From the NCBI RefSeq assembly GCF_003966735.1, contig NZ_AP017378.1, forward strand, positions 1,225,501 to 1,289,500: a stretch of DNA of 64,000 bases, in the 5' to 3' direction. This document shows, piece by piece, positions 6,550 through 45,961 of the stretch. Under the pieces are notes generated by a model, which made no database searches, was not told where the DNA came from, and was given only the letters and a program-made list of their open reading frames with translations. The position numbers and the translations under genes are program-made. Within the stretch, counting starts at the first letter, position 1; every line of letters starts with the position of its first letter. This DNA comes from Desulfovibrio ferrophilus. Its GTDB lineage: Bacteria; Desulfobacterota; Desulfovibrionia; Desulfovibrionales; Desulfovibrionaceae.

Positions 6550-6573
6550 GAGTACTCCCCTCAATAACTGACA

Positions 6574-6608
6574 AAAAAAGACCGCTCCGATTGTCTCAGG
6601 CGGTCTTG
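6574..6608 (-). terminator. Rho-independent terminator upstream of radA
   Basis: Read on the minus strand, an 8-bp stem (AAGACCGC with GCGGTCTT) encloses a loop of about 14 bases and runs into seven T residues. It ends transcription of the metH to zinc-ribbon gene run and insulates radA, whose start is only 25 bases further on. Confidence 0.8.
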
Positions 6609-6653: not shown

Positions 6654-6807
6654 GCCTCAAAAACAGCTGGTTATTGGGAACACACAGGCGGCAAAGCCGA
6701 CTCATATTTTTCACAACTGCGAGGCCAACCAAGGCAGGTGCTTACATGGCGTAAGTGAGGACTTGATTTGACTGTGATGCCGCCGCAAACGTGCTTTTTC
6801 AACAGCC
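6654..6807 (-). repeat. Long-hairpin intergenic repeat, copy A
   Basis: Read on the minus strand it opens with GGCTGTTGAAAAAGCACG and closes with TTTTTGAGGC. In its centre, inner arms ACTTAC and GTAAG are separated by GCCAT and framed by ATCAA on one side and CCTTG on the other. The opening shares primary sequence with copy B at 44118-44238, and the nested layout is shared with copies B and C. The first base of the element directly follows the TAA stop of the zinc-ribbon gene. Confidence 0.7.
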
Positions 6808-7686
6808 TTACAGGCCGGTGACGTCCTGAGCAGCCACAACACTGACGTTGAACTCAGCCACCGTGTCCGCAGGATCAAAAAACACGATCATAAACGGCAC
6901 CTGCTGCCCGTTTTGCAGATTCACATTGTTGGCCCCAATGCCAGCCTCGTCACTCAAGGCGGCTTCGATTTCATCGCGGGACAAAACCTGCAACTGGAAC
7001 AAAGACAGTGTGTTGCCGCACTTCAGCCGGACGGAATCGAGCACCGCGTCCGAGGCATCATAGAGATTGGCTTCGACCTCGATGAGTTCCTTGGGCTTGT
7101 CGAACTGGTTAACGGCCTTGCCCTCAACCACAAAAACCCGACCGGTCTTATCGTTATCCACGTAGTATTGGCGAATGCCTTCAAGATAGATATTCTTGAC
7201 TTGCTCGGCCATGAGCATGGGATCTTCGGCCTGGGTCTCCTGCTCTTCAGGGGCCATTCCAATAACGCCTGGAGCGAAAAAATAGAGCCCCCCGCCGGCC
7301 AGTAACAACAATAACAACACGCCAGCGGCAATCATCCCGATGAGTTTGCCTTTGCCCCCGAGATCCTTCTTTGATTTCTTGGGAGCTACATCCAGGTCGA
7401 ACCCAAGACCTCCAGCGCCATCATCATCGCTGTCTTCAGGTTCTTCGTCGTCTGATTCGTCATCAGAAAAAGCGTCATCCAACGCGCTGCCCAGATCTTC
7501 GTCCGACACATCTTCGTCGGCATCAAAAGGGGCAGTCGTGAAATCCTCTTCAGGCTCACCAGCACCCTCGGGAGCGACGTCGAAAACATTATCGCAGACA
7601 GAGCATTTGACCTTGCGCCCCTCGGACGGGATCAACTCGTCAGGCAGATTGAACGTACTATGGCAGTTGGAACATTCGACGATCAT
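6808..7686 (-). CDS. Zinc-ribbon membrane-anchored DUF3426 protein
   Basis: A 292-residue protein with an N-terminal MJ0042-type zinc ribbon (C5, C8, C28, C31), a very acidic linker (about residues 46-90, mostly Asp/Glu/Ser), a single membrane helix at about 115-137, and a C-terminal DUF3426 domain that would face the periplasm. Such proteins are conserved in Deltaproteobacteria and their function is unknown. ATG 7686 is the natural start. It lies 48 bases after hpt in a leftward gene run. Copy A of the hairpin repeat abuts its stop codon. Confidence 0.85.
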   Translation of the reverse strand: MIVECSNCHSTFNLPDELIPSEGRKVKCSVCDNVFDVAPEGAGEPEEDFTTAPFDADEDVSDEDLGSALDDAFSDDESDDEEPEDSDDDGAGGLGFDLDVAPKKSKKDLGGKGKLIGMIAAGVLLLLLLAGGGLYFFAPGVIGMAPEEQETQAEDPMLMAEQVKNIYLEGIRQYYVDNDKTGRVFVVEGKAVNQFDKPKELIEVEANLYDASDAVLDSVRLKCGNTLSLFQLQVLSRDEIEAALSDEAGIGANNVNLQNGQQVPFMIVFFDPADTVAEFNVSVVAAQDVTGL

Positions 7687-35223: not shown

Positions 35224-35342
35224 GACCGTTCAAAAACAGTAAGGGCTAGAAGCCAGGGAAAATCAAGGCCGACGCGTATTCAACATACACGAAGATTTGA
35301 TTCTCGCGCAGCGACACCGTCCTCGCGGGATTTTCAACGGTC
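35224..35342 (-). repeat. Long-hairpin intergenic repeat, copy C
   Basis: Read on the minus strand it opens GACCGTTGAAAATC and closes GTTTTTGAACGGTC. Inside, ATCAAATCTTCGTGTAT is followed by a short loop and ATACGC, then GGCCTTGATT. It aligns with copy B (44118-44238) over the central part. Its first base is the last base of the recD2 stop codon. Confidence 0.7.
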
Positions 35343-37606
35343 TATCTGTTCACTGCTTCCTGGAGTCGGTAACGAAGATGGGTAAAACGCTTGCGACTCT
35401 CCTTGCGCCCCAGGCCGATGTTCATGGCCCGGGTCTGGCCGATCATGACAGCCAGGCGCTTGGCCCGCGTCAATCCCGTGTAGATCAGGTTCCGCTCAAG
35501 CATCACGTAGTGCTGTGTGACCACGGGCATGACCACTGCTGGGTATTCACTGCCCTGGGATTTATGAACGCTGATGGCATAGGCAGGCGCCAATTCATCC
35601 AGTTCAAAGGACTCGTACATGACCATGCGCCCGTCAAAATTGACCAACACTTCGCCATCATTGGGGTCCACGTCCTCAATCCAGCCCAGGTCGCCGTTGA
35701 AGACATCCTTATCGTAATCATTCTTGAGCTGCAGGACCCGATCGCCCACGCGATAAATGGTGTTACCACGCTTGATCTCGCGGCCACTCGGGTTGATCCG
35801 CTCCTGGAGCAGGGCATTCAGGGCCTGGGTGCCTAGCTCCCCCTTATGAATGGGGGTCAGCACCTGGATATCCCGTTTCGGGTCCAGGCCATAGGCCGTG
35901 GGGATGCGCTCAGTCACCAATTCAAGGATGTAACGCTGGATATCGGCTGCTTCCTGACGACGCACCCAGAAAAAATCATGCTCCGGACCCGGAGGCTCGG
36001 GATTCTCGGGGAGTTGGCCGTTATTGATGCGATGGGCGTTGGTCACAATCAGACTCTCCCGAGCCTGACGATAAATACGAGTCAGCACCGCACTGGGTAC
36101 GGCCTGGGAATCGATGACATCAGACAAAATATTGCCAGGCCCCACACTGGGCAACTGATTGACGTCGCCAATGAGAATCAGGCGACAGGTCAGAGGCAAT
36201 GCCCGCAGCAGCGCCAAAAACAATGACACATCCAGCATACTGGCTTCGTCCACCACCACGGCGTCGGCCTTGAGCTTGTCATCCTCACTCTTGGCAAAGC
36301 CACCGTCAGGCGAATACTGGAGCAGCCGATGCAGGGTTGAGGCAGGGAACCCCGTGGCTTCGGCCATGCGCTTGGCAGCTCGGCCCGTGGGAGCGGCAAG
36401 CTTGATCCTGAACTTCATCTCGTCCAGGCACTGAACCATGATGCGCGTAATAGTGGTTTTGCCCGTTCCCGGCCCACCTGTAATGACAAAAATCTTGTTT
36501 TCGCAACCACCCAACACGGCCTCGCGCTGTTCGCCGGACAGTTCGATCTTGTCCGAGGCCTCCAGTCTGGGCATCACCGTGCGGATTTTCTTTATATCCA
36601 GCGGTGTAGGATGCTCGATGAGATGATACAGGCGAGAGGCAATCTCCGTCTCCTGCCTGTAGTGTTGCATCAGATACACGGCACGCTCGATGCCCTGAGC
36701 CGAGAGGTCCTCCACCATGACCTTCTTGCGCACGGACAGATCACCGACGGCGGCCTCCACCTGCACAGGGCCAATGGCGACGTACTCGTCGCAAGGCCAG
36801 CCTTCCTCGTCCAGAGGAATATCAAACTCGGTAGGTGCAGCCCCGCCGCAGCCGGTCTGTCCGCCTTCCAGCAATCCCAAAACCGCCGGAACGAGTTTCT
36901 CAAAGGGCAGGAACAGGTGCCCCTTGTCCGAGGAGGCCGACGACAGGGCATAAATCACCGCCGCCTCGATACGCTGCGGAGCGTCCGTGGCAAAGCCAAG
37001 TTTCAGGGCCATGTTGTCCGCAGTACGGAACGCCACGCCTCGAATCTCATAGGCCAATTCGTAGGGATTATCCTTGAGCTTTTTGACTGCGCTGTTGCCA
37101 TAGCGCTGATAGATACGAGCAGCATGAGTGGGCGAAACATCATGGGATTGCAGGAACAGCATCAGGTTGCGCACCTCGTGCTGCGCGTCCCATGATTCCT
37201 TGATTTTACTCAAGGTCTTGCGCCCCACACCTTCAACGGCAAGCAACTTCTCCGGCTCGCTGTCGAGGATATCGAGCACCTCGGTGCCAAAGGCCTCCAC
37301 GAGCCGCTTGGCCATAACCTTGCCAACGCCCTTGATCAGACCCGAGGCCAGATAACGGCGAATGCCATTTTCGGTGGCGGGCATCATCTGCTGGCAGACA
37401 TGCACCTCAAACTGGCGACCGAACTTGGGGTGTTCCTTCCAACAGCCGGAAAGCTCCACCATCTCGCCGGGGTTGATCTCGGGCATCACACCGACGACCG
37501 TAACCGATCCAAGACCGTTATCCGCATGAACACGCGCAACGGTCCATCCGTTGGATGGGTTATGAAAGGTAATATTCCGTACTTCGGCCTTGAGCGTATC
37601 GCTCAT
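35342..37606 (-). CDS. recD2: RecD2-type SF1B DNA helicase
   Basis: ATP-dependent 5'-3' DNA helicase of the RecD2 group, which acts without RecBC; 754 residues. An N-terminal OB-like domain is followed by helix-hairpin-helix elements (KGVGKVMAKRLVEAFG and VEGVGRKTLSKIKE), then Walker A GGPGTGKTT, Walker B VVDEASMLD, and the C-terminal SAYAISVHKSQG-like helicase motif (here AYAISVHKSQGSEY). GAGGGACAG supports ATG 37606 over an ATG at 37627. The presence of the long N-terminus and HhH repeats distinguishes it from RecD of RecBCD. Confidence 0.94.
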   Translation of the reverse strand: MSDTLKAEVRNITFHNPSNGWTVARVHADNGLGSVTVVGVMPEINPGEMVELSGCWKEHPKFGRQFEVHVCQQMMPATENGIRRYLASGLIKGVGKVMAKRLVEAFGTEVLDILDSEPEKLLAVEGVGRKTLSKIKESWDAQHEVRNLMLFLQSHDVSPTHAARIYQRYGNSAVKKLKDNPYELAYEIRGVAFRTADNMALKLGFATDAPQRIEAAVIYALSSASSDKGHLFLPFEKLVPAVLGLLEGGQTGCGGAAPTEFDIPLDEEGWPCDEYVAIGPVQVEAAVGDLSVRKKVMVEDLSAQGIERAVYLMQHYRQETEIASRLYHLIEHPTPLDIKKIRTVMPRLEASDKIELSGEQREAVLGGCENKIFVITGGPGTGKTTITRIMVQCLDEMKFRIKLAAPTGRAAKRMAEATGFPASTLHRLLQYSPDGGFAKSEDDKLKADAVVVDEASMLDVSLFLALLRALPLTCRLILIGDVNQLPSVGPGNILSDVIDSQAVPSAVLTRIYRQARESLIVTNAHRINNGQLPENPEPPGPEHDFFWVRRQEAADIQRYILELVTERIPTAYGLDPKRDIQVLTPIHKGELGTQALNALLQERINPSGREIKRGNTIYRVGDRVLQLKNDYDKDVFNGDLGWIEDVDPNDGEVLVNFDGRMVMYESFELDELAPAYAISVHKSQGSEYPAVVMPVVTQHYVMLERNLIYTGLTRAKRLAVMIGQTRAMNIGLGRKESRKRFTHLRYRLQEAVNR

Positions 37607-37682
37607 CTGTCCCTCGCTGGGATGCAAGAATGCCGGGAGCGCGTAGAAACGCCCCCGGCCTGAATATCAATCGCCGAAGTGG

Positions 37683-43047: not shown

Positions 43048-44100
<1,053 letters not shown>

Positions 44101-44117: not shown

Positions 44118-44238
44118 GGCTGCTGAAAAACACGTGTCTGCGGTGTTGCTTCAAACACATCAAACCCTCATGTATTCACAGATACATTTCAGCCTTGATG
44201 TGTTCTCGCGCCTACCATCCACGCATTTTTGAACAGCC
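44118..44238 (+). repeat. Long-hairpin intergenic repeat, copy B
   Basis: A 121-bp element with ends GGCTGCTGAAAAA and TTTTTGAACAGCC. The centre reads ACACATCAA, ATGTAT, a short loop, ATACAT, then TTGATGTGT, a nested hairpin. The start resembles copy A (CACGT then TGCGG) and the centre aligns with copy C (ATCAAA, TGTAT, ATAC, GCCTTGAT). It lies in the mtnA leader. Confidence 0.75.
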
Positions 44239-44255: not shown

Positions 44256-44279
44256 TAAAAAGGGGCCAACCGGCCCCTT
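44256..44279 (-). terminator. Rho-independent terminator after gatB
   Basis: AAGGGGCC and GGCCCCTT flank a short loop, with a T-run on the minus strand. It lies about 250 bases past the gatB stop and should stop leftward transcription before mtnA. Confidence 0.75.
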
Positions 44280-44435
44280 GAAATAATCTCATAATCAGTC
44301 GCTATTGCAGCCTCATGACGACAACCCTAGGCTTTCATAAAAAAATCAACAAAACCAACTTTCCACCCAAGGCGTTCAGCAACCATTCCTCTTAGCACTG
44401 CGGATTGTTCAGTTGGTGCCGGATGCAAGGCGTAA

Positions 44436-44488
44436 GCAGGATTCGAGATCGATGCGTATCAAAACATACGTGAGATTTCGAATCCTGC
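44436..44488. repeat. Long imperfect palindrome, second type
   Basis: GCAGGATTCGA (44436-44446) pairs with TCGAATCCTGC (44478-44488). Inside, CGTAT (44455-44459) pairs with ATACG (44466-44470). The hexamer GGTGCC recurs on both sides (44415 and 44506). It differs in sequence from copies A to C but shares the nested two-arm layout. Confidence 0.6.
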
Positions 44489-44527
44489 GTGACAACAAAG
44501 CAGACGGTGCCAAATGGGCAGTCCGCC

Positions 44528-45961
44528 CTAATTCAACTTCTCGTTGAGAAGTTGATTGGCCAACTTGGGATTAGCCTGCCCCTTGGTCTTGCGCATGATC
44601 TGCCCGACAAAGAAACCCATGAGCTTTTTCTTGCCACCCCGGAAGGCCTCGGCCTCGGACGGATTCTCGGCAATGACCTCGTCCACGGCGATTTCCAGTG
44701 CTCCGGTGTCGGAGATCTGCACCAAGCCCTTGTCCTTGACGTAGGCTTCGGGATCGCCGCCCTGCTCGAAGAGTTCCTTGAAAACCTTTTGCCCCACCTT
44801 CTGGTTGATGGAGCCTTCGTCCACAATTCTGACCAACGTCCCAAAGTCCTTGGGAGCCAAGCCACAATCGGCCACGGAGCAGACGTTGTCGTTCAACATG
44901 CGGCGCATGTCGGACATCATCCAGTTGGCAACCTTCTTGGGATTGTCGAAGCCCTCAATAGCAGCTTCATAATACTCGGCCAACGCACGATCAGCGGTCA
45001 AGACCTCGGCATCAGAGGCTGGCAGGCCGTACTGTTCCATGAACCGAGCGAACTTGGCTTCGGGCAGCTCGGGCAACGAGGCACCTATTTCATCCACCCA
45101 GGTCTGTTCCAGTACCAATGGCACCAGATCCGGATCCGGGAAATAGCGATAGTCGTGGGCCTCTTCCTTGCCACGCATGGCATGGGTCGTGCCCGCGTCA
45201 GCATCATAGAGCCGAGTTTGCTGCACTACAGCCTCACCATCATCCACCAAGTCTTCCTGACGTTCGATCTCATAGGCAATAGCCCGGCGCACATTACGGA
45301 ACGAGTTCATGTTCTTCAGCTCGGTACGAGTACCAAGCTCCTTCTGCCCCACAGGACGGATGGAAATATTGGCGTCGCAACGGAAGGAGCCTTCGTCCAT
45401 ATTGCCGTCGCAGATGCCCAAGTACAGCAGAATGGCGTGCAGCTTGCGCAGGTAGGCCTCGGCTTCCTCCGGGCTGCTCATGTCCGGCTCGCTGACAATC
45501 TCGATCAGTGGCGTACTGGCACGGTTCAGGTCCACAAAACTGGCATTCTCAGCCTGGGAGTGAATGGATTTTCCGGCGTCAGCTTCCATGTGAATGCGCG
45601 TGACTCCAACGGTCTTCTTGCCGCCCTTCTCGGTCTCGATGTCGATTTTGCCATGCTCGGCAATGGGCAACTCGAACTGCGAGATTTGATACCCCATGGG
45701 CAGGTCGGGATAAAAATAGTTCTTGCGGGCGAACACATTCTTCAGGTTCACGGAACAGCCCGTAGCCAATGCCATGCGGGTGGCATACTCCACGGCCCGC
45801 TCATTGATAACGGGCAACGCGCCAGGCATGCCGGAGCACACGGGGCAAACGTTGGAGTTGGGCTCTTTGCCGAACTCGGTAGAGCAGGAACAAAACAGCT
45901 TGGACTTGGTCTTCAGCTGGGCATGGACCTCGAGGCCGATAACGGCTTCGTACTGGGGCAT
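44528..45961 (-). CDS. gatB: Aspartyl/glutamyl-tRNA amidotransferase subunit B
   Basis: tRNA-binding kinase subunit of GatCAB, which converts misacylated Glu-tRNA(Gln)/Asp-tRNA(Asn); 477 residues. The N-terminal [19 protein letters not shown], the cysteine pair in [13 protein letters not shown] and the C-terminal YqeY-like domain are present. AAGGTGATCCC precedes ATG 45961. GatA and GatC genes are not in the neighbourhood. Confidence 0.96.

Follow-up and report, generated by a model that had tools for sequence, protein, structure and literature searches.

What are the long hairpins that recur between the genes of Desulfovibrio ferrophilus, and what places them directly behind stop codons? The question arises from a stretch of 64,000 nt (contig NZ_AP017378.1, positions 1,225,501 to 1,289,500; hereafter the window), in which a preliminary description recognized three dispersed hairpin repeats whose inner arms differ and nevertheless stay paired. 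These repeats are borne out, and the differing, paired inner arms are present in copies 1 to 3. Two of the repeats match R1, a covariance model built from 22 copies of the D. ferrophilus genome, both being within its training set. Copy 2 (35224–35342, minus strand; 100 bits) shares one base with the TAG that terminates the gene at 35342–37627 and otherwise follows it directly. The 5' end of copy 3 (44118–44238, plus strand; 115 bits) is some 15 nt away from the start of a divergent gene (43048–44100), on its upstream side. The count of three was incomplete: all three repeats are members, but a fourth copy (44395–44531, minus strand, given as the R1 match with 6-nt flanks) had been missed. Its core begins 2 nt past the TAG that ends the gene at 44528–45961. 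Since this copy is absent from the training set, its score of 96 bits (E 3.9e-18 for the window) gives independent support to the model.

Copy 1 (6654–6807, minus strand) lies directly 3' of the gene at 6808–7686, which ends in TAA, and reaches 15.5 bits with R1 (E 0.31 in the window search). Its best local alignment to 60 members scores 74, as compared with a maximum of 46 over 200 shuffles of the same copy. Because the score exceeds the shuffled maximum, copy 1 is taken to be a damaged member, apparently interrupted by the insertion of about 37 nt, as seen in its alignment to other members. Terminator-like inverted repeats followed by a T run, identified by eye, are located downstream of copy 1 (6573–6605, minus strand) and of copy 4 (44257–44277, minus strand), separate from the copies themselves.

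The genome search that the preliminary description called for revealed a large family. An exact two-ended pattern has 9 matches in the D. ferrophilus genome (reversed control, 0), and BLAST with copy 3 retrieves many relatives. R1 gives 138 matches at E ≤ 10 and at least 128 places at E ≤ 0.001, the latter figure possibly being a lower bound (scoring covered 150 of 1031 candidates, and one copy's antisense reading is not counted). The copies are divergent, the closest two sharing 78% and the mean being 53%. In a MAFFT alignment of the 22 copies, 90.4% of the cells are paired, as compared with 75.1% after shuffling, and both-sided changes are found in 33 of 43 base pairs. The covariation score is 0.482, against 0.188 for shuffled alignments (none of 500 reaches 0.482) and at most 0.129 for slid partners; the structure was derived from this same alignment, which favors true pairing over its slid versions. 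Conservation of pairing, as claimed from the first three copies, thus holds for the family. Among 94 copies of the genome, the outer stem contains a G opposite a G (conserved at 0.61 and 0.86), and the inner stems are almost free in sequence.

The position of the copies relative to genes is highly regular. Genes were placed with a gene finder built for this analysis and trained on the window, so that gene starts are rough. Of 97 copies considered (96 matches in fetched loci and copy 1), one at a locus edge was dropped. Among the remaining 96, 85 sit in sense behind a gene reading into the 5' end of the element; in the other 11, one gene starts away from the 5' end and another ends towards the 3' end. 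No copy is found between two genes both reading away. The element starts within 20 nt of a stop codon in 75 cases and between −3 and +3 nt of it in 56, where about 2.6 (about 2.7%) would be expected from the gene density of the window. The stops beside the 75 copies are TAG (42), TAA (19), and TGA (14), to be compared with 30, 22, and 8, respectively, for 60 genes of the window. The C-termini encoded by the upstream genes look intact and ordinary (SecA-, enolase-, MutM-, and LexA-like, as named from sequence rather than by database). As a side observation, 4 of the 11 copies not located behind a stop (window 44118; L044, L058, and L063 (1297)) have their 5' end immediately adjacent to a likely ribosome-binding site, 13–16 nt ahead of the start of a divergent gene.

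Better preserved copies, fetched from four other genomes (G198, G173, G251, and G124), show what the hairpin was part of. The full unit measures about 151 bp and carries 15-bp terminal inverted repeats flanked by 4-bp YTAR target duplications. It consists of a left repeat, CAGGCTGTTGAAAAA, the variable hairpin, an internal copy, TTTTTGAACAGCCTG, that closes this hairpin, a spacer of about 11 nt, and a right repeat, TTTTTCAACANCCTG, complement of the left end. With up to 4 mismatches out of 15, the right repeat is found in 30 of the 40 fetched copies, in 15 of 46 genome-contig copies from outside Desulfovibrionales, and in 5 of 33 copies of the Desulfovibrionales type. The 4-nt flanks of such copies are identical in 12 of the 30 (shuffled mean 3.59) and in 7 of the 15 (shuffled mean 1.94), with 0 of 2000 shuffles as high in either case; for the Desulfovibrionales type, 3 of 5 have identical flanks (shuffled mean 1.38), which is not significant. 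Matching flanks are mostly TTAG, CTAG, or CTAA. IS5 is reported to duplicate YTAR (PMC10359306).

A candidate partner was found in one genome, as the one insertion sequence having the ends of the family. This 1342-bp element (L444, 809–2150) has perfect 15-bp ends identical to those of the family and CTAG on both sides. It contains an intact ORF of 365 codons with DUF772 and DDE_Tnp_1 domains, which scores 263.5 bits with the NCBIfam model transpos_IS5_4 (cut-off 140) and is, as judged from these matches, an intact IS5-family transposase. The element shares only about 15–22 bp with the hairpin unit and contains nothing that corresponds to the internal hairpin. Matches to the transposase at E ≤ 1e-10 occur in 4 of 34 genomes, all chosen as carriers of the family, and are full length in one. 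Part of L444 resembles DNA in 133 plasmid records, none over more than 80% of its length; among the plasmid matches listed, the annotation, where given, is IS5 family transposase. A search for DDE_Tnp_1 (PF01609) in eight element-bearing genomes gave 16 matches in 3 of them, L444 being one of these 16 loci, and none in the other five, including G251, which is complete, in a single contig, and rich in copies. Within a subset of the fetched loci, 42 end pairs delimit putative elements of 500–3600 bp, none with identical 4-nt flanks. Because inverted repeats, YTAR duplications, and one IS5-family element with identical ends all occur in other genomes, it is very probable that the hairpin family originated as IS5-type MITEs, the autonomous partner being represented by this one element. 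The preliminary description had proposed a mobile element family, and the evidence from other genomes agrees with it.

The distribution of the family is patchy. R1 matches in 34 of 59 genomes (D. ferrophilus and relatives). A second model, R2, built from 40 copies outside Desulfovibrionales, matches in 90 of 197 genomes sampled from the phylum, D. ferrophilus included (82 of the 185 of good quality). A pattern scan of GTDB genomes gave at least 120 stretches; among the 80 listed, 77 match R1 (L159, L169, and L174 do not), and the matching ones include records titled Syntrophaceae, Omnitrophica, Alkaliphilus, and Sporomusa. The family is thus present in some Firmicutes and Omnitrophica too. Plasmid and phage collections, queried with one copy of the Syntrophaceae type, gave no match in either; pattern matches in IMG/VR amount to four stretches.

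In the lineage of the window, the unit appears as a remnant. The right repeat is recognized in 3 of 97 D. ferrophilus copies with up to 4 mismatches (0 of 97 control stretches) and in 5, against 2 in controls, with up to 5 mismatches, which indicates that nearly all copies are without a right end. The corresponding region holds close to 0 bits of information. Relatives of the L444 transposase were found neither in this genome nor in that of a sister species of the same genus (G001) at E ≤ 1e-10. Because the right end is lost, the transposase is absent, and identity between copies is low, the copies look old and immobile. As two terminal inverted repeats are not found, they are best called MITE remnants, whose membership rests on homology of the hairpin, the right repeat and the duplication being missing.

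Many of these remnants are nevertheless kept in place. For 26 of 35 copies examined in the sister species, a same-strand copy of D. ferrophilus is located within 350 nt of the matching flank; two of the remaining sites hold remnants recognized by eye, and 7 copies have no visible counterpart. In 19 same-site pairs, identity ranges from 0.93 to 0.53, with an average of 0.561 for 300 random pairs between the two genomes. Eight pairs (at least 0.73) are clear orthologues, 3 fall among the highest values of the random pairs (2–5% of these are as alike), and 8 are well inside the random range. The low-identity pairs may mean either fast change or the replacement of one copy by another at an unchanged position. 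Among the 8 closer pairs, both-sided changes that keep Watson-Crick pairing number 19 and one-sided changes 44; the 11 more distant pairs show 100 and 72, respectively. Conservation of the unpaired bases in the 94 copies is uneven, some being conserved at 0.95–0.98 and others at 0.30–0.40. Together with the loss of information at the former right end, this unevenness is read as pointing to a constrained hairpin, although the mean modal frequency (0.64 in unpaired columns, 0.69 in paired ones) shows no excess for unpaired bases.

Is the hairpin maintained as RNA? The preliminary description had read the paired changes as suggesting selection for structure, in the form of an RNA hairpin or of protein-binding DNA. 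A stem selected as RNA is expected to tolerate G-U much better than A-C. In the paired columns of the 94 copies, GT/TG is observed 139 times, or 218 times if one constant pair is included, against 219 for AC/CA; without four AC-rich pairs near conserved mismatches, the numbers become 118 and 128. The stems of 24 of the 54 tRNAs of the same genome contain 22 G.T and 1 A.C, the tRNAs having been kept if well paired with G-T allowed, a choice that somewhat disfavors A-C. In same-site pairs, one-sided changes between Watson-Crick and AC (47) outnumber those between Watson-Crick and GT (24). Because G.T is no commoner than A.C in the stems, unlike in tRNAs, the pairing of the arms is read as a DNA-level property, due either to selection of a DNA hairpin or to template switching between the arms, a mechanism described for RNA genes (PMC8794818). 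The conserved pairing therefore stands, but selection as RNA does not find support in these counts. Functional RNA structures at 3' ends, acting on mRNA stability or slowing the terminating ribosome, would still account for the sense placement behind genes, for the proximity to stop codons, and for the sites kept in the sister species. In addition, slowing of the terminating ribosome has been reported in E. coli for REPs located no more than 15 nt from a stop codon (PMC12306157). With no preference for wobble pairs, a position largely explained by the YTAR target, and no match to the hairpins in the window at Rfam gathering thresholds (two tRNAs alone are matched), such a role is possible but rather unlikely.

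As an alternative, the copies might be functionless fossil MITEs, their arms kept complementary solely through template-switch mutation in a quasi-palindrome, a mechanism described in PMC8794818. The similar G.T and A.C counts fit this explanation, as do the numbers of both-sided and one-sided changes in close and distant pairs, the perfected stem of copy L040, and the neighboring double changes, 85 against 51 expected from a uniform rate that does not control for unevenness between columns. The nearly invariant unpaired bases, next to others at 0.30 and a right end that vanishes, are left unexplained by it, and so is retention at the same genes; we give it somewhat less than an even chance. 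Intrinsic terminators spread by duplication would also be placed after genes, and the hairpins do have a T run in their 3' arm. However, this run pairs within the stem rather than directly following it, and a scan for GC-rich stems followed by a T run lists nothing in three regions of the window, the same scan having also missed both repeats seen by eye near copies 1 and 4. Spreading terminators are, on this evidence, highly improbable. The last alternative, a REP-like element moved by a Y1 (RAYT) transposase, was suggested by the TAG beside the foot of the hairpin, as in GTAG REPs, which often supply the TAG stop of a gene (PMC3733652), and by a Y1 gene in the D. ferrophilus genome. No PF01797 match is found in 8 of 24 element-bearing genomes, elements are near 3 of 52 Y1 loci (one being a weak partial match), and the unit has inverted repeats at both ends and a 4-bp duplication, which is unlike single-strand transposition by Y1 enzymes. 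Mobilization by such an enzyme is thereby largely refuted and has hardly any likelihood left. Two further candidates were abandoned: insertion after any stop by a translation-linked process was set aside once the YTAR duplication had been found, and attC-like sites, considered because of the gene-plus-hairpin layout, have end motifs that are, presumably, the reverse of those of the family.

Returning to the IS5-type origin, the following scheme can be proposed. Insertion of the 151-bp unit would duplicate a 4-bp YTAR target, as seen in other genomes. YTAR contains TAG or TAA, and insertion at a YTAR that is also a stop codon would leave the gene intact. Survivors would consequently be found directly after stop codons, because the TAG or TAA inside the target spares the host gene. 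In the lineage of the window, the right end and the transposase have been lost, but many of the same genes still carry the left hairpin, usually reading in the direction of the gene. Some of its unpaired positions hardly vary, and its arms have been rewritten in a way that preserves complementarity. Constraint on certain bases may hold the hairpin, and template-switch repair or DNA-hairpin selection may keep the arms complementary; we give the constraint part of the scheme roughly even odds. As a more tentative extension, which we regard as rather doubtful, over 100 immobile hairpins would have been taken over as a class of domesticated, stop-adjacent 3'-end DNA elements, in which recognized bases are conserved and arms rewritten, thereby creating covariation without selection as RNA.

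Two features fit the scheme less well. TGA stops (14 of 75 copies) do not fit YTAR, so that later drift is needed; in other genomes, the stops have two modes, one at position 0 and one as the TGA inside GTTGA. Moreover, among mobile-type copies (n = 82), ORFs of at least 100 codons end in sense at the left end in 39 cases and in antisense at the right end in 19, an orientation bias that is not predicted by the target model alone. The corresponding numbers in D. ferrophilus (n = 96) are 72 and 6, the antisense count being blurred by the loss of the right end.

Among known systems, IS5-family insertion sequences and their MITEs are the closest, with 15-bp inverted repeats, a 4-bp YTAR duplication, and the IS5-type transposase of the partner. 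The hairpin family differs from them by its long internal hairpin, absent from the L444 partner, and by D. ferrophilus copies devoid of the right end and the duplication yet kept at stop codons. REP/RAYT systems of the GTAG superfamily share high-copy palindromes, clusters, and pairs, as well as a TAG at the foot of the hairpin able to serve as a stop (PMC3733652), but REPs measure 20–40 nt instead of about 120 nt, and the present element has no link to a Y1 transposase. QMITE2 of Coxiella burnetii (about 190 bp) is described as having truncated copies that have lost direct and inverted repeats and as resembling REPs, and Chunjie of Geobacter uraniireducens (178–235 bp) as an intergenic MITE with many partial copies (PMC10969869); their sizes differ from the about 151 bp of the present unit, the comparison being one of descriptions. 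Multicopy features of Geobacter and Pelobacter also include high-copy intergenic families, some of them palindromic (PMC2700814, PMC2996986, PMC3543383), again alike by description. Among the literature matches listed, with alignments in supplements outside the scope, no description of the hairpin family was found.

A mobile-element origin is of an ordinary kind. As to the long retention of the hairpin, the family offers an extensive natural collection in which its reasons can be sought. Strong covariation is seen here in apparent DNA-level remnants of transposons, which warns against taking covariation alone as proof of a functional RNA, and counting G.T against A.C is a cheap test that separates RNA-level from DNA-level pairing. 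The overlap between YTAR and stop codons offers an explanation for stop-adjacent palindromes.

Several minor observations concern the arrangement of the copies in the D. ferrophilus genome. Copies are densest at 2.8–3.4 Mb, and the orientation of 104 of 128 agrees with a division into two arcs, whose boundaries near 1.14 and 2.92 Mb were fitted to the data; this probably reflects the replication-related orientation of genes. Tandem pairs abut head-to-tail (e.g., 2268769/2268895, 2916284/2916421, and 2072912/2073045), and convergent pairs spaced by about 250 nt are seen repeatedly. Individual copies also depart from the common form. One D. ferrophilus copy (L275, 13637–13775) has about 55 extra nt that are missing from its counterpart in the sister species, and another copy (L173, 4824–4972) contains a second GC-rich hairpin. 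Finally, L050/L040 displays a perfect 23-bp inner stem without the conserved bulge of the family, as would result from one arm being a copy of the other.
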